Below, piece by piece: positions 10,045-55,134 of a DNA stretch of 64,000 bases. Origin of the DNA: Ignavibacteria bacterium (GTDB lineage Bacteria > Bacteroidota > Ignavibacteria > Ignavibacteriales > SURF-24); NCBI GenBank assembly GCA_025612375.1, contig JAAXKN010000021.1:1-64000 (forward strand). Direction: 5' to 3'. Position numbers and translations under genes: made by a program. The notes below the pieces were generated by a model, which was not told the DNA's origin, did no database searches, and worked only from the letters and a program-made list of their open reading frames with translations. Each line of letters begins with the position of its first letter. The first letter of the stretch is position 1.

Positions 10045-10818
10045 ATGTTAAGAAGCGTGAAAACCCTCGAAGGCTATAAAATACACGCCCTCGACGGCGA
10101 AATTGGCGAAGTTAATGACTTCTTTTTTGATGATGTATCGTGGAATATACGCTACTTCGTTGTGGATACCGGTACCTGGCTTCAGAAACGACTGGTTCTC
10201 ATTTCCCCTCATTCACTGGGAAAACCGGACTGGAAGGAAAAACGCTTCCCGGTTAACCTGACTAAGGAAAAAATCCAGAACAGCCCCTCTGTCGACGTTG
10301 CCAGACCCGTCTCTCGCCAGCAGGAGACCGACTTAAGCGACTATTACGGCTGGCCTTACTACTGGACGGGCTTGGGCGCCGGGTTCCCCGGTGCTATACC
10401 TCCTGTGCCCCCAAACCTTAACACGCCCGACCAGGGCTTTGTTACAGATAAAAATACCAGAGATGAAAACCAGAGGGAAACTGACCCCCACCTAAGAAGC
10501 GCACGCGATATAATAGACTATAAAATTCAGGCGGATGACGATAAAATTGGCAACGTCGAGGACTTTATCCTCGAAGACGACCTCTGGAGCATCCGCTATA
10601 TGGTGGTCGATACCGGCAAGTGGCTCCTTCCCGGCAAAAAAGTGCTCATTGCACTCCCCTGGATACAGGATATCGACTGGAGCGATTCATTGGTCTATGT
10701 GAACCTTACAGCGGCCGAGGTGGAGCAGAGCCCTGAATATCATCCCGACAGAATCATAAATAAGGAGTTCGAGGCCGGCCTCTTCAAACATTATAACAGG
10801 CCGGTACCCTGGAAGTAA
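10045..10818 (+). CDS. PRC-barrel protein with two PRC domains
   Basis: A 257-residue soluble protein with two similar halves. Each contains the PRC-barrel pattern: a short greeting strand, IG-x-V-x-D-F-x-x-(D)D-x-x-W-x-I-R-Y-x-V-V-D-T-G-x-W-L. The first repeat is at about residues 5-75 and the second at about 150-225, joined by a Pro/Gly/Tyr-rich linker. PRC barrels bind RNA or protein partners (RimM, photosynthetic reaction-centre H subunit); stand-alone tandem versions are common in environmental bacteria and often stress-linked, but their ligand is not known. A strong AGGGAGG precedes the ATG. It is monocistronic and ends in a convergent terminator. Confidence 0.9.
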   Translation: MLRSVKTLEGYKIHALDGEIGEVNDFFFDDVSWNIRYFVVDTGTWLQKRLVLISPHSLGKPDWKEKRFPVNLTKEKIQNSPSVDVARPVSRQQETDLSDYYGWPYYWTGLGAGFPGAIPPVPPNLNTPDQGFVTDKNTRDENQRETDPHLRSARDIIDYKIQADDDKIGNVEDFILEDDLWSIRYMVVDTGKWLLPGKKVLIALPWIQDIDWSDSLVYVNLTAAEVEQSPEYHPDRIINKEFEAGLFKHYNRPVPWK

Positions 10819-10826
10819 AATAAAAA

Positions 10827-10855
10827 AGGTCTGGAAGGCTGATCCTTCCAGACCT
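10827..10855. terminator. Bidirectional terminator between convergent genes
   Basis: A perfect 12-bp stem, AGGTCTGGAAGG/CCTTCCAGACCT with a 5-base loop, lies between the PRC-barrel gene (+) and the M56 gene (-). An A-run precedes it (10822-10827), giving a U-tract on the minus strand; on the plus strand the following bases are less T-rich, so it should be strongest for the minus-strand M56 transcript. Confidence 0.8.
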
Positions 10856-10863
10856 GCTAAAAA

Positions 10864-12096
10864 CTATTTAAGCTTGAACTGGTAGGGCATTACCATGCGG
10901 ACCCTTACCGGCTTGCCTTTCTGCATTCCGGGGTTCCAATTGCCCATAAGTTTTGTCACCCTTACAGCCTCTTCGTCGCATCCGCCGCCAATGCCTTTAA
11001 CCACCTTAATATCACTCATACTCCCGTCTTTCTCAATAATAAAGCCTACCATTACTTTACCCTGTACGCCCTCTTTTTTAGCAGCCTGGGGATACACTAC
11101 ATTGCTGGATATGAACTCCAGAACCGCATTTACTCCGCCGGGGTAAGATGGCATCTGGTCTACAAACGTGTACGGCTCTTCCTGCTGAAGAGACGTATCT
11201 GCAGCCGGGGATGTCTTTGCAATTGCAGTAATGTCTCTTCCGCCGTTGGTCATGCCGAAGAACATTACTACAAGCATCATTAACGGAATGGAAAGAAGAA
11301 ATTTAACTTTTGCATTCTTGGATGACCTTTTTTGTGCCAGCATTTCGAACCTCCTTTTTAAGAGTGAATTGAAATTGTTCGTCATTGAATTTCCGCCTGC
11401 TCTGAAGGCGAAAGCCAGAAGCGTGGATTTATATTCTGTGCTGTCTGTGCCGTTATTTATAACTTCCGTATCGGCTATAAATTCATGCTGTGCCTCAAGC
11501 TCTCTTTTCATGAGCCATACAAAAGGGTTGAACCACTGCAGAATTGTAAGAGCCTCAAAGAAGATAATGTCAACCGAGTGGAGGCTTTTTATATGCGCCT
11601 CCTCGTGCAGTATCAGTGTCGAAAGCGCCGGGTCCTCCAGGTTTCCCTTGGGAAGAAATATTGTTTTGAAAAATGAGAAGGGTGAATGCCCCTCGTCAAG
11701 CAGAATTGTCTTGTGCCCCTGAATAATTACCGGGGCGCTGTAGTCTCCCAGCTTTGAGATCTGGTACAGCCTCCACAAAAATCTTGCAAGTAATGCTGCG
11801 GAAATTATGAGGTAACCGGTCCATAAAAGGTAATAGGGATCAATACCGCTATCTGCGGCTTTTGTGCTGCTGCCTATAAGTACGGGCTCAAGATAAAGCG
11901 TAATGGTTCTTCCTGCATCACCCGAAGGAAGACTGAACCTGAAGAGGGGAACCGTGATGGAAAAAATTCCCGCCATTAAAAGATACACCCTGTTCATATA
12001 GTGCACGGTTTCTTTTTTAAGGCGCGCCATGTAGAACAGGTAAAAGATCATGAAGCTGAAGGACGACTGCAAAAGGTAAAATTCAAAAGAGTTCAT
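10864..12096 (-). CDS. BlaR1-like M56 membrane metallopeptidase with TonB C-terminal domain
   Basis: A 410-residue inner-membrane protein. Transmembrane segments are visible near residues 5-22, 36-52, 88-106 and 268-286. The M56 peptidase site is H164-EEA-H168, followed by an ExxHExxAD-type helix (ELEAQHEFIADTEV, from residue 199). A C-terminal TonB-like domain (about 315-410, containing YPGGVNAVLEFISSNVVYPQ and the YP-x-A-K-K-E-G-V-Q-G motif) is periplasmic. In the BlaR1/MecR1 family the peptidase responds to an outside signal and leads to cleavage of the partner BlaI-type repressor. That partner is the next gene upstream (11 bases away). The TonB fold suggests the signal reports on an energised outer-membrane receptor, plausibly the one upstream. 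Confidence 0.88.
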   Translation of the reverse strand: MNSFEFYLLQSSFSFMIFYLFYMARLKKETVHYMNRVYLLMAGIFSITVPLFRFSLPSGDAGRTITLYLEPVLIGSSTKAADSGIDPYYLLWTGYLIISAALLARFLWRLYQISKLGDYSAPVIIQGHKTILLDEGHSPFSFFKTIFLPKGNLEDPALSTLILHEEAHIKSLHSVDIIFFEALTILQWFNPFVWLMKRELEAQHEFIADTEVINNGTDSTEYKSTLLAFAFRAGGNSMTNNFNSLLKRRFEMLAQKRSSKNAKVKFLLSIPLMMLVVMFFGMTNGGRDITAIAKTSPAADTSLQQEEPYTFVDQMPSYPGGVNAVLEFISSNVVYPQAAKKEGVQGKVMVGFIIEKDGSMSDIKVVKGIGGGCDEEAVRVTKLMGNWNPGMQKGKPVRVRMVMPYQFKLK

Positions 12097-12107
12097 TTTA
12101 TTTCCCG

Positions 12108-12512
12108 TTAATTGTTTTTCTTTTTAGTCCCGTTTTCTTTCTTTGCCTTAATTTCTTTCTGGAGCATCTTCATTATCTCTTCCATTTCATTTACATCCAT
12201 TTCTTCCTCCTTGCTGAAGAAAGAAACCATGCCTGCAAATGAATTCGAGAAGTATCCCTTAAGGAAGCCTTTAAGATGGTCCCTTGTATAATTCTCCTTT
12301 GTAACTATGGGGTAATACTCGTGCGTGTTGCCGTAGGCCTTGTGCGATACAAAGCCTTTCTTCTCAAGTATCCTTACAATTGTTGAAACCGTCGTATAGG
12401 CCGGCTTGGGCTCCGGAAGCTCTTTAATGATGTCGTTTACAAATCCCTTCCCAAGCCCCCAGAGTATCTGCATAATCTGTTCCTCGGCCTTTGTCATTTC
12501 TTTAGTTTTCAA
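12108..12512 (-). CDS. BlaI/MecI/CopY-family transcriptional repressor
   Basis: A 134-residue winged-helix regulator beginning with the conserved MTKAEEQIMQILW and YTTVSTIVRILEKKGFVSHKAYG, the DNA-recognition and wing region of the Penicillinase_R family. The C-terminal Lys/Glu-rich helix serves dimerisation and proteolytic release. It lies directly upstream of the M56 gene (11-base gap) and 77 bases downstream of the receptor gene. I infer it represses this cluster; inverted repeats upstream of the receptor are candidate sites. A shorter TACAATGTA element lies at 12538-12546, in front of its own start. Confidence 0.92.
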   Translation of the reverse strand: MKTKEMTKAEEQIMQILWGLGKGFVNDIIKELPEPKPAYTTVSTIVRILEKKGFVSHKAYGNTHEYYPIVTKENYTRDHLKGFLKGYFSNSFAGMVSFFSKEEEMDVNEMEEIMKMLQKEIKAKKENGTKKKNN

Positions 12513-12589
12513 TTTATTCCTCTCTGTAATTTATTAATACAATGTAAGTGCAGGGTGAAACTGACGGTGCTTCCCCTGAAATTTCTACT

Positions 12590-15001
12590 CTACTGCACTC
12601 CGGCAGGCCGGTCCCTTCCGTCATCAACCTCCCGTTCCTCTTTTGCCTGATAACTATTGAATAAATAACTCAGTGATAACGCCAGATACCTGGAATTATG
12701 CGGCATGAAATGACCTTTGGAACTGAAATCATTTGCATAAGTTTCATAAATGACATCAGCTTTATTTAAGACGTCATATATCGATAACGTTACTCTTAAA
12801 CTGTTAGCCAGAAACCGCCTTGAAAGTGAAATACCAAGATCCGTCGTGCTGCTCCTTTTATTTCTCTGCGACTTTGACTCCGGGCGGTAGGAAAACGACA
12901 CGGATGCATTTGCCTTGTACCAGAGATTAAAGCTTGCGTATGAGGACAGGTAAAGGTTTGTCTTGTTTTCAGACAGGTCTTCCTGCATGTAAGTGCCTTT
13001 CTGTATGAACCTGCTTACATTTATTCTGGTATTCAGCGTCGGGAACCACTTAGGCAGTTGTACCGGCGAAGATTTCCCGCTGCTTAAGTTAAGGCTTAGC
13101 TCAATTCCAAATTCCTGCGTCTTTGGCCCGTTTATGTATGTGGAAAATAAAACCGTGTCCTGCATCATCGTCTGGGCGCTTATAATTTTGCCTTTCGAAT
13201 CATAATAAAACAAAGTGAAGTACGGCATCAGCCCTGCGGAAATTGAATTTGTGTAAACAGGATCCAGCTTTGAATTTCCTTTGCTGGCTGAATAGGGAGA
13301 ATTATTTCTCCTGAAGGGATTTAAATATCTCATCTCGGGCCTTTGTACCCTTCTGGAATAGTTTACAAAAAGCTGCATCATGTTTATGTTATATGAAAGA
13401 TTAACAGACGGGTAAATACTGTAGTAATCTGTTGCAAAATTTTCTCCGCTTACTGTCTGCAGCCCTTCGGTATACGCTTTCTCTCCCCTGAGGCCAAGCC
13501 TGTAGTTGATGCCCAGGGCCTTACCCGAGTAAAGAAGATATACAGAATGAATACTCTCTTTATAATTAAACGTGTTGCTGAAATCCAGACTGTCCAGCCA
13601 TGCATCCTGGAGGTAACTGAAATACAGGTTAGCGTATTCATTCGACCTGTTCCTGAACGTAAAGTTATAGCCGGTTTCAAACCTGGCCGACTTACTGAAC
13701 GGATTCACATATGCCGCCTTAAAGATAGCGGTATTATTCTTCATCTGCTCATTCTGTTTCTGCAGATAAGGATAGTCTTTCCTGTAGTCATATTTAGTCG
13801 ATATATTATAAAAATCATCCTGCCCTATATTTGCATAGTAAATGTCGGAAGTCACTTCGCAGCCTTCACTGTTTATCTTATTCCGGTAGAATCCGGTAAG
13901 TGTATAAGTGGCGTATTTTGTATCCTGGTCAGATCCGTAGCTGTATCTGGTATCCTGCAGCAGGTAACTTTCTCTGCGCAGTGAATTGTCAGAATAGTCT
14001 ATATTCATTTTCTGATTTGTCATCGCAGTAGACAATGAAAAGAAATTGGATTCATCAGGCTCATAATCCATTCCGAGTTTCAGATCATAGAAATTGCTAA
14101 GCACACTTCCGTCGCCTGCTGATGTTGCAACGGATGTCCCGGCAGCGCTTTTCGAAATTAAGTACCGGCAGGAGGAAGATTTTTCTATATAATGTCCGTA
14201 AGTCAGATTTGTAAATATATTTATCTTCCCGCTTTTATAGTTCAGTGCTAAAGATGGCCTGGTATTTTCTTTGGAAGCTTGCCTTAAAGAGATGAAGCCG
14301 CTGAAAGAATCGAAGAGGTTCCTCTTTGAAATGAGGTTCAGAATTCCCGCATCGCCTTCAGGGTCGTCCTTGGCCGAAGGGGAAGAAACTACTTCAATTT
14401 TCTCAATCAGCTCTGCCGGCATCTGCGAAAGATACTCATCATTAAACTGGAAAGGCTTGCCGTCTACAAGTATTTTAACCCCGGCTCTTCCCCTGATCGT
14501 TATTTTGTTTGTAACAGGTTCAATCTCAACTGCCCCCACTGTTTTCAGGGCCTCGGCAACACTGGAAGGTGAAACGGGAAGTTTATCAATATTTATAACC
14601 TGCTTATCCACGTAATATTCAATCGGGGGCTTTTCTCCTTTAATTACTATGGTTTTCAGCGTAATTGAACCAGGGACTAATCTGATTTCCCCCAGGTTCA
14701 GTGTATCATTACCCGCAAAACTTACCTCAAAGCGCTTTGTCTCATAGCCTATCAGAGAAAACTGCACAACTGCGCTATCCGGCATAACTTTGCGGAGGGA
14801 AAAATATCCATTATTGTCAGAAATGGTACCTGCGGCAATTTTATTGCTGCTTTTGTTTATTACTGCCACTGTTACTCCGGGAAGCGGACTTTTAAGCAAT
14901 TCACCATCAAGCACCCGGCCTTTAATTGAGAACGTTTTTCCGCTTTGAGAAAAAACAACTGAGGTACAAAACAGGACCAGAACAAGAATGAAATGTCGCA
15001 T
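12590..15001 (-). CDS. TonB-dependent outer-membrane receptor (OMP_b-brl_3 type)
   Basis: An 803-residue outer-membrane protein. The start is the ATG at 15001 with AAAGGA seven bases upstream; an ATG eight codons earlier lacks a ribosome site. Order: signal peptide (residues 1-19), carboxypeptidase-like regulatory domain (about 24-100), plug (about 115-230, containing the GRAGVKILVDGKPF and EKIEVVSSPSAKDDPEG motifs), then a large barrel ending in LSLSYLFNS before a charged tail. It probably imports or senses a peptide or metal-chelate ligand using TonB energy. It sits upstream of the blaI/M56 pair on the same strand, suggesting ligand-responsive control. The C-terminal 20 residues are hydrophilic, atypical for a barrel end. 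Confidence 0.85.
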   Translation of the reverse strand: MRHFILVLVLFCTSVVFSQSGKTFSIKGRVLDGELLKSPLPGVTVAVINKSSNKIAAGTISDNNGYFSLRKVMPDSAVVQFSLIGYETKRFEVSFAGNDTLNLGEIRLVPGSITLKTIVIKGEKPPIEYYVDKQVINIDKLPVSPSSVAEALKTVGAVEIEPVTNKITIRGRAGVKILVDGKPFQFNDEYLSQMPAELIEKIEVVSSPSAKDDPEGDAGILNLISKRNLFDSFSGFISLRQASKENTRPSLALNYKSGKINIFTNLTYGHYIEKSSSCRYLISKSAAGTSVATSAGDGSVLSNFYDLKLGMDYEPDESNFFSLSTAMTNQKMNIDYSDNSLRRESYLLQDTRYSYGSDQDTKYATYTLTGFYRNKINSEGCEVTSDIYYANIGQDDFYNISTKYDYRKDYPYLQKQNEQMKNNTAIFKAAYVNPFSKSARFETGYNFTFRNRSNEYANLYFSYLQDAWLDSLDFSNTFNYKESIHSVYLLYSGKALGINYRLGLRGEKAYTEGLQTVSGENFATDYYSIYPSVNLSYNINMMQLFVNYSRRVQRPEMRYLNPFRRNNSPYSASKGNSKLDPVYTNSISAGLMPYFTLFYYDSKGKIISAQTMMQDTVLFSTYINGPKTQEFGIELSLNLSSGKSSPVQLPKWFPTLNTRINVSRFIQKGTYMQEDLSENKTNLYLSSYASFNLWYKANASVSFSYRPESKSQRNKRSSTTDLGISLSRRFLANSLRVTLSIYDVLNKADVIYETYANDFSSKGHFMPHNSRYLALSLSYLFNSYQAKEEREVDDGRDRPAGVQ

Positions 15002-15136
15002 GAGATTATCCTTTTTTATGTGCAATTAGTACCTGAATAAACTGTATCCGCTAAAGGACGCCAAAATAAAAGCAAAATCATTCTTAATTTGAAAAGACCC
15101 CACCAGGCCGGTCTCATTGATGTCAACTGCAATATA

Positions 15137-15194
15137 TAACTAAACTTTTAGTTAGTCAACGACTTTTTTAATCCCCTAACTATTTTTTTAGTAG
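15137..15194. promoter_or_regulatory. Two TAACTA/TAGTTA inverted repeats, candidate BlaI operators
   Basis: Positions 15137-15154 read TAACTAA-ACTT-TTAGTTA, a perfect 7-bp inverted repeat. Positions 15176-15194 read CTAACTA, five T's, TTAGTAG, the same half sites with one mismatch. Both lie 136-193 bases upstream of the receptor start. Their symmetry, spacing and place next to a BlaI-type regulator fit operator sites. Binding is inferred. Confidence 0.5.
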
Positions 15195-15262
15195 AATTGT
15201 GATTTAAGCGGCGCCCTCAAGGAGCCTCGGAGAAAGAAAGAGGCCCCACACCCTTCTTCAGA

Positions 15263-15405
15263 GCTTCGGAGAAGCAAATTGTCTGTAGAAAAAGGATGAT
15301 CAACAAAGAAAGCCGGAGCTCCGGAGGCGCGACTTGTATGCCGGGTATAAACATAAATTCAACATTCGGGTGGTGTCAGGAACCATTTCCTGACATCACC
15401 CGTCC
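15263..15405. repeat. Family A hairpins and a long palindrome in the 15.0-15.5 kb gap
   Basis: 15263-15275 is GCTTC-GGA-GAAGC with tail AAATTGTCTGTAG; 15318-15330 is a degenerate copy (GCTCC-GGA-GGCGC, tail GACTTGTATG). A further hairpin built on TCAGGAA/TTCCTGA lies near 15376-15395. No gene is visible between the receptor and the aldo/keto reductase. Confidence 0.65.
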
Positions 15406-15508
15406 GCCGCGCCATTAAAACAATCTTCTCCCCCTGTTTTATTTTCCTTAATATTCATTTATATTTTTTTATCGGATATTTCAATAATGTTACATAACCG
15501 GGAATAAT

Positions 15509-16453
15509 ATGAGATATAAAAAATTATGCAAAAACGGCCCCGAAGTCTCTGTAATCAGCTTCGGCGCCTGGGCTATCGGGGGACGCGACTGGGGTAAAAC
15601 GGACGATAACCAGTCCATTGCTGCCATAAATGAGGCACTCGACCAGGGCGTTAATTTCCTCGATACGGCCGACGTCTACGGCTTCGGCCACTCCGAAGAA
15701 CTTATTGCAAAAGTCCTCAAACAGCGCGGCAAAAACGGCATCTATGTCGCCACTAAGGCCGGCAGTGACTTCTATAATTATAAGGACGAAAAAGGGGAAG
15801 TGAAGATAACTCCTAACTATACAAAGGATTACCTCATTTCGGCAGCCGAGAAAAGCCTTAAAAGACTGAATGTAGATACGCTCGACCTCCTTCAGCTCCA
15901 CAGCCCTTCAACGGACCTCCTTGAAAAAGACGACCCGTGGGAAGCCCTCTATCAGCTGAAAAAAGACGGCAAGATCAGACTCGCGGGCTTAAGCGTCCAG
16001 TCGTTTAAGGAAACCGAACAGGCATACCTGCTGGATAAATACAATGACATTCTGGACTGCCTCCAGGTGCGCTATAACCTCCTTGAAAGGGAAGCCGAAA
16101 AAGAACTCTTCCCCAAGGCTGAAAAGTACGGAATAGGCATAATTGCAAGAATACCTATGCTCTTCGGATTCTTAACGGGTAAATTCAGCCGCGATACGCG
16201 CTTTGAAGAAGGGGACCACAGAAGGTTCAACCTGTCCCCGGAGAAAATCGAGAAGTACTTTACCGGACTTGAAAGCTATGAGCCTTTGTATATGCTCCAT
16301 CCGGAATACACAAAAGCGCAGATAAGCCTTGGCTTCTGCCTCATGCATCCTGCTGTCAGCACCGCAATTCCGGGCGGAAAAACCCCTCAGCAGGTCTCCG
16401 AGAACTGCGTCGCTGCCGAAATAGATCCTTCAATTTATAAAGAGCTCCTGTAA
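15509..16453 (+). CDS. Aldo/keto reductase
   Basis: A 314-residue NAD(P)H-dependent oxidoreductase of the AKR superfamily. The TIM-barrel hallmarks are present: GAWAIGG near the N terminus, the catalytic Asp and Tyr in FLDTADVYGFGHSEE, the catalytic Lys in VATKAG, the His in LDLLQLHSP and the C-terminal AIPGGKTPQQVSEN cofactor segment. The substrate cannot be told from sequence; AKRs of this subgroup reduce sugar aldehydes and ketones. It is monocistronic, with a strong terminator directly after it. A second, diverged member lies at 25.3-26.3 kb. Confidence 0.9.
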   Translation: MRYKKLCKNGPEVSVISFGAWAIGGRDWGKTDDNQSIAAINEALDQGVNFLDTADVYGFGHSEELIAKVLKQRGKNGIYVATKAGSDFYNYKDEKGEVKITPNYTKDYLISAAEKSLKRLNVDTLDLLQLHSPSTDLLEKDDPWEALYQLKKDGKIRLAGLSVQSFKETEQAYLLDKYNDILDCLQVRYNLLEREAEKELFPKAEKYGIGIIARIPMLFGFLTGKFSRDTRFEEGDHRRFNLSPEKIEKYFTGLESYEPLYMLHPEYTKAQISLGFCLMHPAVSTAIPGGKTPQQVSENCVAAEIDPSIYKELL

Positions 16454-31470: not shown

Positions 31471-32517
31471 TTATTTATGAAATTCGGCGCTCTCTTCCTT
31501 AACAATCCTCACCAGCGCCTTCAGATTCTCCGGATCCACATCCGGAAGAATCCCGTGGCCCAGATTGAACACATGCCCCGTCCCTTCACCGTACGACCTC
31601 ATTACATCCATAGCTCTCTTTCTTATAACATCCTGATTGGCATACAGCACGCAGGGATCCATATTCCCCTGAAGTGCCACTTTACTGCCCACGAGCTTTC
31701 TCACACTCCCTAAATCCATCGTCCAGTCCAGCCCCAATACATCAGCACCCGAATCCGCAAGCTCGCCTATATTATAATGCACTCCCTTGGCAAATACAAT
31801 AACGGGCTCATCTTTTTTCTTCAGCTCCGAGATAACCCGTGTAATATATTGTAAAGAAAATTCCCTGAAATCATCAGGGGCAAGAATTCCGCCCCACGTA
31901 TCAAATATCTGTACCGCGTTAACTCCCGCCTCTATCTTGGCCGAAAGATAATCCGCCACGGCTTTTGAAATCATCTCCAGAAGCTCGTGCGCAAGCCTTG
32001 GCTCGTCATAAATCATCTTCTTGATCAAAGAGAAATTCTTGGACCCTCTCCCTTCCACCATATACGTCAGAAGCGTCCAGGGCGACCCGCTGAAACCTAT
32101 GAGCGGAACCCTTCCCTGAAGAGCCTCTTTAGTCACTTTAACAGCATCCAGAACATACTTAAGATCCTTATAAGGATCAATTACCTTTAAGCTCTTTGCA
32201 TCATCCTTTGTGCGCACCGGGTTGTGGAATATTGGCCCTTTCCCCTCGTGCATCTCAAGCTTGAGGCCCATGGCCTCGGGTATAACAAGAATGTCCGAGA
32301 ATATAATTGCCGCGTCCACGCCTATAATATCCACCGGCTGAATTGTCACTTCGCTTGCCAGCTCGGGCGTTTTGCACATAGTCAGAAAATCGGCTTTTTC
32401 CCTTACGGCCCTGTATTCCGGCAGATACCTTCCTGCCTGACGCATAACCCATATTGGCGTGCGTTCAACCGCCTGCCTTCTGCAGGCCCTTAAAAATAGG
32501 TCGTTCTGTATCTTCAA
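31471..32517 (-). CDS. hemE: Uroporphyrinogen decarboxylase
   Basis: A 348-residue enzyme that converts uroporphyrinogen III to coproporphyrinogen III. It has the N-terminal RTPIWVMRQAGRYLPEYRAVR signature, IGFSGSPWTLLTYMVEG, and the C-terminal LQGNMDPCVLY and HVFNLGHGILPDVDPEN motifs. The start is a TTG at 32517, backed by AGGAG eight bases upstream; this TTG overlaps the stop of the TetR-HemD gene by four bases (TTGA), which indicates translational coupling. Confidence 0.96.
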   Translation of the reverse strand: MKIQNDLFLRACRRQAVERTPIWVMRQAGRYLPEYRAVREKADFLTMCKTPELASEVTIQPVDIIGVDAAIIFSDILVIPEAMGLKLEMHEGKGPIFHNPVRTKDDAKSLKVIDPYKDLKYVLDAVKVTKEALQGRVPLIGFSGSPWTLLTYMVEGRGSKNFSLIKKMIYDEPRLAHELLEMISKAVADYLSAKIEAGVNAVQIFDTWGGILAPDDFREFSLQYITRVISELKKKDEPVIVFAKGVHYNIGELADSGADVLGLDWTMDLGSVRKLVGSKVALQGNMDPCVLYANQDVIRKRAMDVMRSYGEGTGHVFNLGHGILPDVDPENLKALVRIVKEESAEFHK

Positions 32518-33932
32518 TAAACTGTCTCCTGGCTTGATGCTGTTTTGCTGATTAAATAATAGTCTGCTGCCGCTCTTAAAACACCTTCCATCGTGTACTC
32601 TTTGGGAAGTATATCTACTCTTAAACCCGACTTCTCAATCTCACTTGCCGTCGTGGGACCAATGGCCGCAACGGCAAAATCCTCAAAGTACTTGCTTACA
32701 TCTTTAACCTCCATTATTTCCAGGAAGTTTCTATACGATGATGGACTCGTAAAAATGAACAGGTCGGGCTTCGAACTCTTTAACTTGTCTTTATATAAAC
32801 TTATGCTTTCTTTCGATGGCACGGCAACGCTGTAAGCCGCAGCCGCACTTACATTCGCCCCCATCTGCCTTAAGGCTTCCTGAAGCTCTCCTCTTGCAAT
32901 TGCGGAAGAGGGGATAAATACATTTTTCCCCTTAAGATCTTCTTCACCTAAACCCGCAATCATTCCCGAAGCGCTGAACTCCTTGGGCACCATGCTGACT
33001 GTAATTCCCATCTTCTCACACACAGTAGAAGTTTTCTTTCCTACTGCCAGAACCTTCAGCTTCGAATAGTCGGGTTTTACCCCAAGCTCCTCGCATCTTT
33101 TAAGAAACATCTTAACAGCGTTAGCCGAAGTGAAAATGAGAATGTCTGTTTTATTAAGATCCTTAACAGCACTGTCAAACTCCTTCCAGTCCTCAGGCGG
33201 CACAACTTCAAGAGTAGGGAAGATTACAACGCCCGCGCCGCTGTCAGTAAAAAGTGCTGCCGACTCCTTCGAATCCTCCTCGGCTCTCGTTATAACAACC
33301 GTCCTGTTCTCCAGCGGAAGCTTCTTTTTGCTTCTGCTTAAGCCCTTCAGAATAAAATCAAAAAGCCTTTCCCTTTCATCCGTAATTTCATCTTTTGTGT
33401 AGCTGCCTGCAACGGCGCGGCCTACCGCGGCATAAATGCTTCCAAGCACCACCTGCGCCGCAAAATCGGGGTCAGACGTAAAGAAAACATTTTCCTTTAC
33501 GCCTTCACTTATAATCTCCTTCAGCGCGTCATTAAGCTCGGTTTTCCTTTCCCTGAACTCCGAGCACGAAGAGCTCTGCGCGTTAAGGTTATCTTTCTGG
33601 AACATGATAAAGAAACAAGAGTACTTTACCATGAACATGTAATTGTGTATTACAAAAGAGTGCAGCGACTCCACAGCCGTCGCCTCTTCCTTAATTCTTG
33701 TCTTAAGTGAGCTGATGAGGTTCGTCATCCTGGTAAGCATGATGGAAAAATATAGATCCTCCTTCGAGGCAAAGTAATTATAAAGCGTGCCCTTGGCAAT
33801 TGAAGCCATCCTGGCCACGTCCTCCATCATCACTTCATGAAAACTGTTCTCCGAAAAAAGCCGCGATGCCGCCTCAATTATCCTTTCACGCTTGTGATTT
33901 TTTTTATCCGTTATTTTTCCCTTATCAGCCAA
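32514..33932 (-). CDS. hemD: TetR-family regulator fused to uroporphyrinogen-III synthase (HemD)
   Basis: A 472-residue two-part protein. Residues 13-60 form a TetR-type helix-turn-helix (RERIIEAASRLFSENSFHEV, GTLYNYFASKEDLYFSIML) and about 65-200 a TetR-like ligand/dimer domain. After a basic linker (SRSKKKLPLE), residues 208-462 are a complete uroporphyrinogen-III synthase with TVVITRAEED, IFTSANAV (267-273), IFTSPSSYRNF (393-403) and AAIGPTTASEIEKSG (422-436). HemD closes hydroxymethylbilane to uroporphyrinogen III. The start is a TTG at 33932; the next ATG (residue 35) would cut the helix-turn-helix. It lies 12 bases after hemC and overlaps hemE. I infer an autoregulating enzyme-regulator for this operon; DNA binding is unproven. 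No stop or frameshift separates the halves. Confidence 0.92.
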   Translation of the reverse strand: MADKGKITDKKNHKRERIIEAASRLFSENSFHEVMMEDVARMASIAKGTLYNYFASKEDLYFSIMLTRMTNLISSLKTRIKEEATAVESLHSFVIHNYMFMVKYSCFFIMFQKDNLNAQSSSCSEFRERKTELNDALKEIISEGVKENVFFTSDPDFAAQVVLGSIYAAVGRAVAGSYTKDEITDERERLFDFILKGLSRSKKKLPLENRTVVITRAEEDSKESAALFTDSGAGVVIFPTLEVVPPEDWKEFDSAVKDLNKTDILIFTSANAVKMFLKRCEELGVKPDYSKLKVLAVGKKTSTVCEKMGITVSMVPKEFSASGMIAGLGEEDLKGKNVFIPSSAIARGELQEALRQMGANVSAAAAYSVAVPSKESISLYKDKLKSSKPDLFIFTSPSSYRNFLEIMEVKDVSKYFEDFAVAAIGPTTASEIEKSGLRVDILPKEYTMEGVLRAAADYYLISKTASSQETVY

Positions 33933-37313: not shown

Positions 37314-38429
37314 TCAGTATCCCCGTCTTACAACTTTCTCAAAATCCGAATGTATCATCAATTTCACTAATTCTTCAAACTTCGTCCCCGGCTCCCAGCC
37401 AAGCTTTTCCTTCGCCTTTGCTGCGTTTCCAATCAGCAGTTCAACCTCTGTGGGACGGTAATACCCTGGCGAAACCTCCACAACGCACGTTCCGGGCTTC
37501 AGAATGTCGGTCTTTATCCTGGCACTCTGGTGCTTAAGCTCATGCTCCACAAGAGACATATCCACCTTCCTGATTACACCCCTTTCATTCTCCTCCTTAC
37601 CCTGCCAGTCTATCTCAATTCCAAGCTCACGGAAAGCCAGATCCGTAAACTCACGCACCATATGCGTCTCACCCGTAGCCAGCACAAAATCATCAGCCTT
37701 CTCATGCTGAAGTATACGCCACATACCCTCGCAGTACTCTGGAGCAAAACCCCAGTCGCGCTTGGCGTTCAAGTTACCCAGAATAAGCTTATCCTGGAGC
37801 CCAAGTGCAATCCTCGAGACTGCACGCGTAATCTTCCTCGTTACAAACGTCTCACCGCGCCTTGGCGACTCATGGTTAAACAAAATTCCGTTGCATGCAA
37901 ACAGGTTATAAGCCTCACGGTAATTAACAATTATCCAGTAGCCGTAGAGCTTTGCCACTCCGTAAGGGGAGCGGGGATAGAAGGGGGTCTTTTCACTCTG
38001 CGGCACTTCCTGCACCTTGCCGAACAGTTCACTCGTGGAAGCCTGATAAAACTTAACCTGACGGTCAATTCCAACCTCCCTTATTGCATCCAGGAACCTG
38101 AGAGTACCCAGGGCATCCACCTGTGCCGTATAGTCAGGAAGCTCAAAAGAGACCTTAACGTGGCTCTGAGCCGCAAGATTGTAGATTTCATCAGGACAGA
38201 TCTTCTCCAATAGGCGGTTTAAGTTACTGGTATCCACCAGGTCGCCATAGTGCAGAAAAAGAGTTTTCCCGCTGATATCGGGATTATTATAAAGATGGTC
38301 AATCCTTCCCGTATTAAAAGAACTGCTGCGTCTTATAATGCCATGGACCTCATACCCCTTTTCCAGAAGAATTTCTGTCAGGTACGATCCATCCTGTCCC
38401 GTAATGCCTGTAATGAGTGCTTTTTTCAT
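37314..38429 (-). CDS. gmd: GDP-mannose 4,6-dehydratase (copy 1)
   Basis: A 371-residue extended SDR enzyme that makes GDP-4-keto-6-deoxymannose, the first step to GDP-L-fucose. [19 protein letters not shown] is the NAD-binding motif; the active Tyr-Lys is in [15 protein letters not shown] and the Thr/Ser in [11 protein letters not shown] use the ATG at 38429, two codons inside the longest frame. It follows fcl on the same strand. A second copy at 54.0-55.1 kb, roughly 80 percent identical by eye, sits in the polysaccharide cluster; the two have diverged mostly in the last third. Confidence 0.97.
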
Positions 38430-38460
38430 GTTCAATTAAAAATTAAAAATTAAAAAATAT

Positions 38461-47208: not shown

Positions 47209-48264
47209 TTAAATCAGATGGAATTTATTAGCATAATTATGTAAATGATTGAAAGCAATATAAACATACCTTTCCTGGAAGAGTTTCTGCTTTCTCACCG
47301 ACCAATCATTAATTACCTTTATAATATCATCTGGCTGAAGATCGGGCTTATCTTTCCGGACAAAATCAACGGTCGCAAGTACTTCAAGAGATAAAGCCGA
47401 TTGAAACCCCTCAATTAAAGCTATAAGATTCTTTAACCTCGTTTTTTGTTCCTGAGAAAGCTCTCTCCTTATGTAGTCGCTTACTTCCTTTGTCCTATCA
47501 TATTGTAATTCAAGTGTTTCAAAAGGCTTAACATTCATCTGTTCCAAACCTTTAATATACTTTCCATTAAGATTATGAAGCATATGTTCAACCTGTACAC
47601 TATAAGGCCCATAATGGCTGGCTTGAAACTTAAGTTTGCTGAAGTTTTTATCTCCCAGCCTTTGCAGAAAATATGCAAGCTTATTAGCTACAAATAAACT
47701 GCTGTTCTCACCCAATGTCTCATAATAGAACATTGAATATAAAAGCATTGCCCGTGCCGGTGTTAAACTAACTTCTCTGGTTTGCGCATGCGACTTCAAA
47801 AGTGCTTTAATCTCCTGGCTGGGCTCATATATTTGTATATCTACATCTTGTAAATGTCCAAGATATTTTTCTATCAAAGGCTTTACTTTACTCCATTGCA
47901 GCCCTCCATTGCCGCAGCCTAAAGGAGGAATGGAAATACTATAAATTTTATAATCTTCAATTACTTTAACAAGCGCTTTTAGGCCCTCTTCAACGTATTC
48001 ATACTTCGATTTCAGAAACCATTCTGTCTTGGTCGGAAAATTAATGATTATTTTTTCACCATCCAGTTTTGTTTCCTTAACTACTAGTAATTTGCCGGGA
48101 ACTAACTCTTTTTTCTTGCATGCCTCGGCATAAATCCTGAAGTTCTCAGGAAATGCCTCCTTAAATTGAAGAGCTATTCCCTTGCCCATTACGCCCACAG
48201 TATTTACTGTATTGACAAGGGCCTGTGTTTTAGCTTCTAAAAGGTTTCCTGTTACAAATTTCAT
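47209..48264 (-). CDS. darG: DarG-type macrodomain antitoxin
   Basis: A 351-residue protein. The N-terminal macrodomain (about 1-155) has TGNLLEAKTQALVNTVNTVG, MGKGIALQFKEAFPENF and ISIPPLGCGNGGLQWSKV, the ADP-ribose pocket of DNA ADP-ribosyl glycohydrolase DarG, which removes the adduct placed by DarT. The C-terminal part (about 165-351, ARAMLLYSMFYYETLGENS, KFQASHYGPYSVQVEHMLHNL) is helical and resembles the neutralising domain seen in some DarG proteins, which binds DarT directly. It follows darT by 13 bases on the same strand. Confidence 0.9.
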   Translation of the reverse strand: MKFVTGNLLEAKTQALVNTVNTVGVMGKGIALQFKEAFPENFRIYAEACKKKELVPGKLLVVKETKLDGEKIIINFPTKTEWFLKSKYEYVEEGLKALVKVIEDYKIYSISIPPLGCGNGGLQWSKVKPLIEKYLGHLQDVDIQIYEPSQEIKALLKSHAQTREVSLTPARAMLLYSMFYYETLGENSSLFVANKLAYFLQRLGDKNFSKLKFQASHYGPYSVQVEHMLHNLNGKYIKGLEQMNVKPFETLELQYDRTKEVSDYIRRELSQEQKTRLKNLIALIEGFQSALSLEVLATVDFVRKDKPDLQPDDIIKVINDWSVRKQKLFQERYVYIAFNHLHNYANKFHLI

Positions 48265-48277
48265 ACTTTATCTTTCA

Positions 48278-48925
48278 TTAATAATAAAACTGATTATTAG
48301 GATTTATAACAACGGTAATATTTAGTCCAAGACGGTTAATAATTTCCTCAAGTACTTTAGATTTTTCACTATTAAAAACTACAATTGCCCTGATACAGGA
48401 TACAGGGACATAATCTTTGACTAAAAATTCCGCCTGTTTTCTTCGCATCCTGTCATAATCTGATTGTTGCGGCTGCCAATAACGGGCAGAAACCATATCC
48501 CAGTCTACCTCATCAATATTGGAGAGATCGTTATAAAACTTAGTAATTAAATTCTTGGCATGTCCATCTGTAAAGCACCATTCCCCGCATTGCTGCACTA
48601 CATCATCAAGTTTGCAGCAAACATATACAATCTCACTTTGCGGGCGCATTGTAATCCCTCTGTATCCCGTCTTTATATTTAATAACATAGGAGATAACGG
48701 CCCGAAATAGAAAGGGATGTAATCTCCCAAATATCCCCCGGGAGGGTTAATTCCTACAGGATAGTTGTTCCGCTGTTGAATAAGATTACTGTCTCCAATA
48801 TTTATATAGCCTGGTTCTGCTTTTTGATGTGTACGGGTAAACATTCCATGGCTAAGTAAATACTCCATATTATCTATATGGACTATTCTGTATAATTTAA
48901 CAATTTTGGGCCTTTGTCCGGGCAT
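48278..48925 (-). CDS. darT: DarT-type DNA ADP-ribosyltransferase toxin
   Basis: A 215-residue protein of the DUF4433/DarT family. Key features: LYRIVHIDNMEYLLSHG with His16, DYIPFYFGPLSPMLLNI (residues about 68-84) and the ARTT-like RRKQAEFLV with the catalytic Glu166. DarT transfers ADP-ribose from NAD+ to a base in single-stranded DNA in a short motif, stopping replication; known roles include anti-phage defence and growth control. It is the upstream gene of the pair, with its antitoxin 13 bases on. Base specificity (thymine or guanine) cannot be read off with confidence. It sits in an AT-rich patch flanked by repeats. Confidence 0.9.
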   Translation of the reverse strand: MPGQRPKIVKLYRIVHIDNMEYLLSHGMFTRTHQKAEPGYINIGDSNLIQQRNNYPVGINPPGGYLGDYIPFYFGPLSPMLLNIKTGYRGITMRPQSEIVYVCCKLDDVVQQCGEWCFTDGHAKNLITKFYNDLSNIDEVDWDMVSARYWQPQQSDYDRMRRKQAEFLVKDYVPVSCIRAIVVFNSEKSKVLEEIINRLGLNITVVINPNNQFYY

Positions 48926-54033: not shown

Positions 54034-55134
54034 ATGAAAAAAGCTCTCATCACCGGAATTACAGGCCAGGATGGTTCATATTTAACCGAAATTCTTTTGG
54101 AAAAAGGTTATGAAGTTCATGGAATAGTAAGAAGAAGCAGTTCAATTAATACTGGAAGGATTGATCATCTTTATAATAATCCGGAAATAAGAAATGAAAG
54201 ATTATTTCTTCATTATGGTGATGTAGTAGATACAAGTAATCTTAACAGGATTCTTGAAAAGATTTGTCCCAATGAAATTTATAATCTTGCGGCTCAGAGT
54301 CATGTTAAAGTCTCTTTTGAAGTCCCAGATTATACTGCTCAGGTTGACGCTCTCGGAACTCTTAGATTTCTTGATGCCATTAGGGAAGTTGGAATTGGAA
54401 GGGAAACTAAATTTTACCAGGCATCAACAAGCGAGCTCTTTGGTAAAGTACAGGAAGTCCCCCAAACTGAGAATACTCCATTTTATCCCCGTTCACCTTA
54501 TGGTGTAGCAAAACTTTACGGCTACTGGATAATTGTTAATTATCGTGAAGCCTATAATCTTTTTGCATGTAACGGAATTCTTTTTAATCACGAATCCCCT
54601 AGACGAGGCGAAACATTTGTTACACGCAAAATAACAATGGCAGCTGCAAAGATCGCGTTAGGACTGCAAGATAGGTTAGTTCTTGGTAACCTAAATTCCA
54701 AACGTGACTGGGGCTTTGCTCCTGAGTACTGTGAGGGAATGTGGAGAATTCTTCAGCATGAAATTCCAGAAGACTTTGTTCTTGCTACAGGTGAAACTCA
54801 CACAGTCCGTGAGTTTACAGAACTTACCTTCAAAGAGCTGGGAATTGAGTTAGAGTGGTGTGGCGAAGAAGAAAACGAAAAGGGTATAATTAGAAGATTT
54901 GATCCAACTTTCATCGCTTCCTTTCAAAATGAAAACTTTAGAACTGGACATTTGAAGCCGGGTTCTTGTGTTGTAGAGGTTTCTTCCTCATATTACCGCC
55001 CCACAGAAGTAGAACTGCTTATTGGCAATGCTTCAAAAGCAAAAGAAAGTCTCGGCTGGAGTCCTAAAACCAAATTTGAGGAGCTCGTAAATATTATGAT
55101 CAAATCAGATTTATATAAAAATATAAAAAATTAA
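54034..55134 (+). CDS. gmd: GDP-mannose 4,6-dehydratase (copy 2)
   Basis: A 366-residue extended SDR enzyme making GDP-4-keto-6-deoxymannose. Motifs are as in copy 1: [44 protein letters not shown] and [17 protein letters not shown]. The C-terminal 60 residues carry most of the differences (for example [20 protein letters not shown] against [21 protein letters not shown]). No second fcl is present in the window, so the fucose synthase at 38.6 kb would serve both, or this copy feeds another 6-deoxyhexose. Confidence 0.96.

Follow-up and report, generated by a model that had tools for sequence, protein, structure and literature searches.

What does a BlaR1-type protease sense when it ends in a TonB domain, and why should its operon also encode a TonB-dependent outer-membrane receptor? 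The established role of BlaI-BlaR1 is in Gram-positive bacteria, as a switch that responds to antibiotics; staphylococci sense penicillin with it. In the 64-kb stretch of Ignavibacteria DNA analysed here (the window), the receptor gene (12590-15001, identified by Pfam, AlphaFold model and Foldseek), a blaI gene for a BlaI/MecI-family repressor (12108-12512) and a gene for an M56 membrane metalloprotease with a C-terminal TonB domain (10864-12096, by the same three methods as the receptor) form one operon on the minus strand, bounded by a promoter-like site (15159-15131) upstream and a terminator-like hairpin (10855-10827) downstream. The original prediction had placed receptor, repressor and M56 peptidase in this order on one strand, and all three genes were found as claimed, with intergenic gaps of 77 and 11 bp. 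The receptor frame is listed from a TTG at 15025, and the ATG at 15001 behind AAAGGA is the likelier start. The hairpin (10827-10855, minus strand) follows directly after the M56 stop codon and resembles an intrinsic terminator with 12 pairs and a T tail; it has the longest stem of the six terminator-like sites found in 10700-15510, where 4.6 are expected. The hairpin had been missed before, as had a degenerate middle operator site and the promoter-like site around the first repeat. The operon, its operators, the promoter-like site and the domain make-up are thus established at the level of sequence. The other neighbour is presumably an aldo-keto-reductase-like gene, named from its translation, and no plasmid match was found by blastn.

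Elsewhere in the window, Pfam recognises both a DNA-binding domain of the TetR type and uroporphyrinogen-III synthase (HemD) in a single 472-aa frame at 32514-33932 (minus strand), a possible regulator-enzyme fusion in surroundings that we take to be a heme-biosynthesis cluster. A DarT thymidine ADP-ribosyltransferase beside a macro-domain protein (47209-48925, minus strand) makes up a DarTG-type toxin-antitoxin pair, and two genes in opposite orientation (37314-38435, minus, and 54034-55134, plus) look alike and are presumably GDP-mannose-dehydratase-like.

The promoter-like site consists of a -35 element TTGACT (15154-15159) and, 17 bp away, a -10 element TATATT (15131-15136), both on the minus strand and together matching 10 of 12 consensus bases. 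The promoter scan found 13 such sites in 10700-15510 against 8.6 expected, so they are common by chance, and this one is among three sharing the top score. Its spacer is filled by the operator O1 (15137-15154), a perfect 18-bp palindrome TAACTAAACTTTTAGTTA with the core ACTA-N6-TAGT at 15139-15152, which is the sole mismatch-free match to TAACTAAANNTTTAGTTA in its 5.23-Mb genome. A second operator, O3, has the same core at 15179-15192, 40 bp from O1, and between them lies the degenerate operator-like site O2 (ACGACTTTTTTAAT, 15159-15172) with six of the eight core bases, exactly 20 bp from each. The two TAACTA/TAGTTA inverted repeats originally predicted upstream of the receptor therefore stand in part: the first is perfect over 18 bp, and the second (15177-15194, TAACTATTTTTTTAGTAG) only in its ACTA-N6-TAGT core. 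Only one further genome of the genus was found, an Ignavibacteria bin (JAAXKQ010000010.1, locus L032), and there too the three genes are linked. The two genomes hardly differ from O3 down to the -10 element: the -35 element and O2 are the same in both, and within O1 and O3 only N6 positions have changed. Farther upstream the sequences have diverged, and in the leader they agree in part, best at the ribosome-binding site.

Could the repeats be AT-rich palindromes that arose by chance, with the receptor outside BlaI control? Loose forms of the motif do occur at chance frequency, since the motif as first proposed, with up to three mismatches, gives 37 matches in the 64-kb window against 36.95 expected, with no enrichment, and in loose searches of the whole genome the motif fell short of its reversed controls (6 matches against 10, 9 against 33 and 8 against 26). 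The signal of the operators comes instead from the exactness of their cores, from where these lie and from how they are phased. Exact ACTA-N6-TAGT cores occur in the window only in O1 and O3, and when the 483-bp intergenic stretch was shuffled 20,000 times with its dinucleotides preserved, two never occurred together (at least one did in 67 shuffles). With the conservation in L032, the 20-bp register and the link of the motif to blaI across the phylum also against it, chance is an exceedingly improbable explanation.

This wider link emerged when 84,980 species genomes were scanned by pattern and 43 loci with relatives of the window BlaI came up. Of the 67 ACTA-N6-TAGT sites in these loci, 48 fell at the best blaI of each locus, between 350 bp before its start and 60 bp after it, a zone that amounts to 17.4 of the 556 kb; a permuted control motif had one of its 26 sites there. 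A site precedes blaI itself in 31 of the 43 loci and a gene one or two places ahead of it in L032, L038, L048 and L065, which makes 35 of 43 loci that are not independent, 11 being from Spirosoma or its family and others near-duplicates. The exact operator is absent from the remaining eight (L043, L050, L052, L054, L057, L060, L073 and L074). Of 395 genomes from the phylum, 46 have an exact tandem pair at 20 bp and one has the reversed control pair. Fifty-two tandem arrays were fetched, after overlapping array places had been merged by eye, and blaI was near 49 of them: adjacent or one gene on in 47 by gene call (with one gene in between at L127 and L165) and in two more by six-frame search. 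The three arrays without blaI in the fetched stretch stand before TonB_C genes (L132), before a gene without a Pfam match (L164) and before an RNase E/G gene (L139, 6033-6066). The last of these, with no blaI in 12 kb, may be a chance occurrence or a distal regulon member. At the other extreme, L131 (5985-6078) has five operators at exact 20-bp steps before blaI. Nine of the genes divergent from arrays were scanned and were mixed in kind, with no receptor among them.

Site spacings near blaI were 20 bp (68 cases), 40 (11), 48 and 28 (7 each), 60 and 58 (2 each) and rarer others, a table enriched for 20 because it mixes the 52 arrays chosen for that spacing with the other loci; among the 43 loci alone, a 20-bp pair occurs in 13 and a 40-bp pair in L032. 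In L033 and L034 the nearest operator lies between TTGACA and a -10-like hexamer, and in several relatives it is followed by what we take, by eye, to be a TAnnTTTG-like element of the Bacteroidota -7 type. On this comparison of sequences, ACTA-N6-TAGT is a marker of blaI promoters across Bacteroidota.

The repressor itself matches Penicillinase_R over residues 7-118 of 134 (Pfam E 2e-31) and MecI (1sd6, E 1.2e-12), and palindromic ACTA-N6-TAGT sites of BlaI geometry, the putative operators, stand at its own operon promoter. Because these sites lie at the promoter, are kept in L032 and belong to a motif that marks blaI promoters phylum-wide, it is very likely, by analogy with the family, that the receptor operon is under BlaI control. 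The alignment to MecI Phe102 predicts cleavage at Phe98-Phe99 (12216-12221, minus strand), where the P1' Phe is kept, as it is in 83 of 103 relatives; passages of PMC9834060 give the cleavage of BlaI as Asn101-Phe102, with a P1' Phe almost invariant in BlaI. The window BlaI also seems to be a repressor of local reach, for which the receptor is the one known output apart from the regulatory genes, since matches to AACTA-N6-TAGTT outside the operon in the genus genomes G000 and G001 lie only inside reading frames and at places not shared between the two. In all, this motif occurs at 3 and 2 places in these genomes against 18 and 10 for the reversed control, in a search that misses O3 itself and weaker targets. 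The receptor thus looks like the main regulated output. The genome has one further BlaI-M56 pair (L009), whose BlaI is 29% identical and whose M56 is the stronger M56 match in the genome.

The M56 protein combines Peptidase_M56 with a TonB_C domain by Pfam (E 1.3e-18). In its AlphaFold model (mean pLDDT 80), four membrane-type helices and a protease domain are joined through a disordered linker to a C-terminal domain. A hydropathy scan picked out all of these four helices but the first, and also a stretch at 177-195 in the protease domain. In Foldseek, S. aureus BlaR1 came first (8exp_A, E 1.1e-8), followed by TonB C-terminal domains, the first of them bound to FoxA (6i97_D, E 4.6e-4); agreement with BlaR1 over the whole chain is modest (TM 0.41, rmsd 20). 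The TonB-like end proposed for this protein was borne out, as Pfam and fold both place TonB_C after the last membrane helix, at residues 332-409 (10870-11103, minus strand). The linker from that helix is of about 46 residues, by our own estimate borderline for spanning the periplasm. No penicillin-binding sensor domain was found in the protein, TonB_C standing there instead, and the score for the generic BlaR1 model of NCBIfam was 41.6 against a cut-off of 400.

For comparison, M56 hits of up to 300 residues or weaker than E 1e-12 were excluded. Of the 104 kept, 94 stood behind blaI, and removal of those at least 60% alike left 71, or 72 with the window; the set was drawn from relatives of the window BlaI and from operator arrays and is not a random sample. 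All 72 have HExxH, and H164, E165 and H168 of the zinc-protease motif HEEAH (residues 164-168, 11593-11607, minus strand) are invariant columns. At the position of the BlaR1 autocleavage loop the window protein has TNNFN (residues 239-243, 11368-11382, minus strand), with F in 61 of the 72 members and autocleavage predicted at Asn241-Phe242; in BlaR1 it occurs at Ser283-Phe284, as stated in part of PMC9834060. With HExxH, the BlaR1 fold match and the cleavage regions conserved, the original prediction of a BlaR1-type protease paired with BlaI holds, and from what is established for the family, release of the repressor by proteolysis through M56 is likely.

The receptor has CarboxypepD_reg, Plug and an OMP_b-brl_3 barrel by Pfam, a signal-peptide-like start as judged by eye, and an AlphaFold model with the TonB-dependent-transporter fold, a plug and a large beta-barrel. 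The best 50 of 836 Foldseek matches are all TonB-dependent transporters, by title or name, and include heme, siderophore, copper and PQQ receptors at TM of about 0.5; these fold hits do not discriminate the ligand. No solved structure was close in sequence (best E 0.0053). The N-terminus gave no Pfam match to a signalling domain and has CarboxypepD_reg there, and before the plug lies TIVIKG in TIVIKGEKP, which we guess to be the TonB box. As TonB_C of the M56 protein is complete by Pfam and fold and stands in the operon of a TonB-dependent receptor, the protein might mainly be an energy transducer, a TonB for the receptor in its own operon, with the protease part secondary. This is very unlikely in view of the pairing with BlaI, the BlaI operators, the BlaR1-like membrane and protease part and the HExxH kept in every one of the 72 members, of which only 23 have TonB_C.

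Relatives tell more of how the receptor came to be here. Six loci (L032-L037) have a BlaI of at least 60% identity, and only in L032 does the operon include a receptor; in L033-L037 the operator stands directly before blaI-M56. L033 and L034, of the same order, share the promoter-operator layout and have BlaI 76 and 73% identical, and L035 and L036 look alike, the record of L036 having only 260 bp upstream. The M56 proteins of L033-L035 have TonB_C although their operons have no receptor. For receptor homologues at 35-38% identity in the same and related genomes (L178-L184), stretches of 10.8-12 kb were fetched, and none contains blaI. The expectation that the trio would recur in relatives is therefore true within the genus, where L032 has it linked, and fails outside it, where the genes are unlinked (L033-L037 and L178-L184), an outcome that the original prediction had itself named as counting against it. 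Across the 43 blaI loci and 52 arrays, L032 is the one further trio under operators, so that the arrangement was seen in two genomes only.

Two other arrangements were considered and not counted. In L177, a receptor, a 328-bp gap, blaI and M56 follow one another, the fetched stretch has no ACTA-N6-TAGT, and the receptor itself follows a pair that resembles a response regulator and a kinase, read from the N-terminal sequences. In L041 and L042 a receptor of the same kind (called by Pfam in L041 and by phmmer in L042) comes after a second blaI-M56 pair, in a different order.

The simplest history suggested by these comparisons is that the receptor was inserted between an existing promoter-operator block and blaI; alternatively, it may have been lost in the relatives. 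Since close relatives keep operators, blaI and M56 without the receptor, the sensor is probably older than the capture of the receptor. Furthermore, as L033 and L034 have M56-TonB_C and operators with no receptor, TonB_C does not depend on the window receptor, and what it reads may be other receptors or a different signal. The same relatives give some ground for regarding the receptor as captured cargo under BlaI, with an M56-TonB_C that makes no contact with it and responds to something general: peptidoglycan, envelope damage or free TonB-type interactions. Cell-wall domains on BlaI-paired M56 proteins (Amidase_3 in 3 and Peptidase_M23 in 1 of the 72) agree with it, as does other cargo behind such operators, namely an FtsX/MacB permease (L127) and TonB_C proteins (L065 and L132). 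Against it, TonB_C (23 of 72, the window included) and Plug (15 of 72) are the commonest extra domains, the next being CarboxypepD_reg (5 of 72), in counts taken at E of at most 0.001 and not at curated cut-offs; these domains may overlap. Their frequency points to the receptor interface rather than the wall, and we consider the cargo explanation somewhat unlikely. In sequence terms, the counts suggest that BlaR1-type proteases have repeatedly taken up either half of the TonB-receptor interface as a sensor part.

At L136 (6481-8802) an M56 protein has TonB_C and a SusC/RagA model match below the cut-off, and at L127 (8958-11150) one has a cell-wall amidase, Plug and a SusC signature above it. 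Separate TonB_C genes stand beside BlaI-M56 pairs in L038, L054 and L065 and perhaps in L037, where the M56 is possibly split; L038 (6568-15821) has three blaI-M56 pairs, a further M56-like gene and the separate TonB_C gene.

Taken together, we favour, with somewhat better than even confidence, an autoregulated local derepression switch of the BlaI/BlaR1 type with the TonB-dependent receptor as its output. BlaI dimers on O1, in the promoter spacer, and on O3 would keep receptor, blaI and M56 off, and the degenerate O2 in the same 20-bp register would perhaps help BlaI occupancy. The M56 protein would span the inner membrane, its zinc protease facing the cytoplasm and TonB_C reaching into the periplasm, where BlaR1 has its beta-lactam sensor. 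Engagement of TonB_C would open the protease, which would cleave BlaI next to Phe99, so that receptor, BlaI and M56 are made. We infer the identity of the signal: the most likely one would be the state of a TonB-dependent receptor, possibly that of the window, whose TonB box would be freed on ligand binding. Sensing of such a receptor state is plausible, at slightly less than an even chance, and sensing of the window receptor itself is less so. As a wider proposal, to which we give somewhat lower weight still, Bacteroidota and Ignavibacteria might have a third type of signalling from outer membrane to gene beside anti-sigma relays and hybrid two-component systems, in which BlaR1-type proteases with TonB_C or a SusC-like plug as their periplasmic sensor would read the state of TonB-dependent receptors and cut BlaI off 20-bp-phased ACTA-N6-TAGT operators, the output here being the receptor itself.

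The resemblance to staphylococcal BlaI-BlaR1 and MecI-MecR1 covers the repressor family, the four-helix M56 protease, their pairing, the palindromes at the promoter and the cleavage regions. Unlike in BlaI-BlaR1, TonB_C takes the place of the beta-lactam-binding domain in the window sensor, a receptor is the target, and the operator half-site is ACTAAA or ACTATT, whereas the staphylococcal one has TACA. The staphylococcal genes form a divergon; the three genes of the window run one way. Cell-surface signalling of the FecARI type is similar in that an outer-membrane TonB-dependent receptor is encoded with its own regulators and that the putative contact is a domain which an inner-membrane protein exposes in the periplasm; in contrast, control in the window would be by derepression. 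The operon has no gene for an ECF sigma or anti-sigma factor, the neighbours of the receptor gene being blaI, M56 and the aldo-keto-reductase-like gene. Proteolysis is also part of the path from receptor through anti-sigma to ECF sigma factor, as described in part of PMC7593790. CopY/CopR belong to the same repressor family, and the window operators fit the TACANNTGTA geometry of CopY and the TACA/TGTA sites of BlaI/MecI as given in passages of PMC7253601; however, CopY is metal-controlled via CXC motifs, while the window BlaI has no cysteine in its sequence and is paired with a protease.

In the open PMC literature, outside of which lie most subscription papers and all bioRxiv preprints, no paper on M56-TonB fusions with BlaI was found by title or the start of the abstract. 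For Porphyromonas gingivalis a BlaI gene and an M56 gene appear in tables of PMC10470040, and a BlaI family regulator is mentioned for Riemerella in a passage of PMC5294843. Many BlaI-M56 pairs in this large Gram-negative phylum have transport-interface domains where a drug sensor would be, which could be a little-described way of sensing events at the outer membrane, and the simple operator code, readable from sequence, gives a direct and testable idea of what such pairs sense. Other Bacteroidota pairs share the operators, the pairing and often TonB_C, whereas a receptor between operators and blaI is found, among the loci examined, only in the genus of the window (L041 and L042 having theirs after the second M56). 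With the receptor as the only other gene, this operon would make a clean test case.
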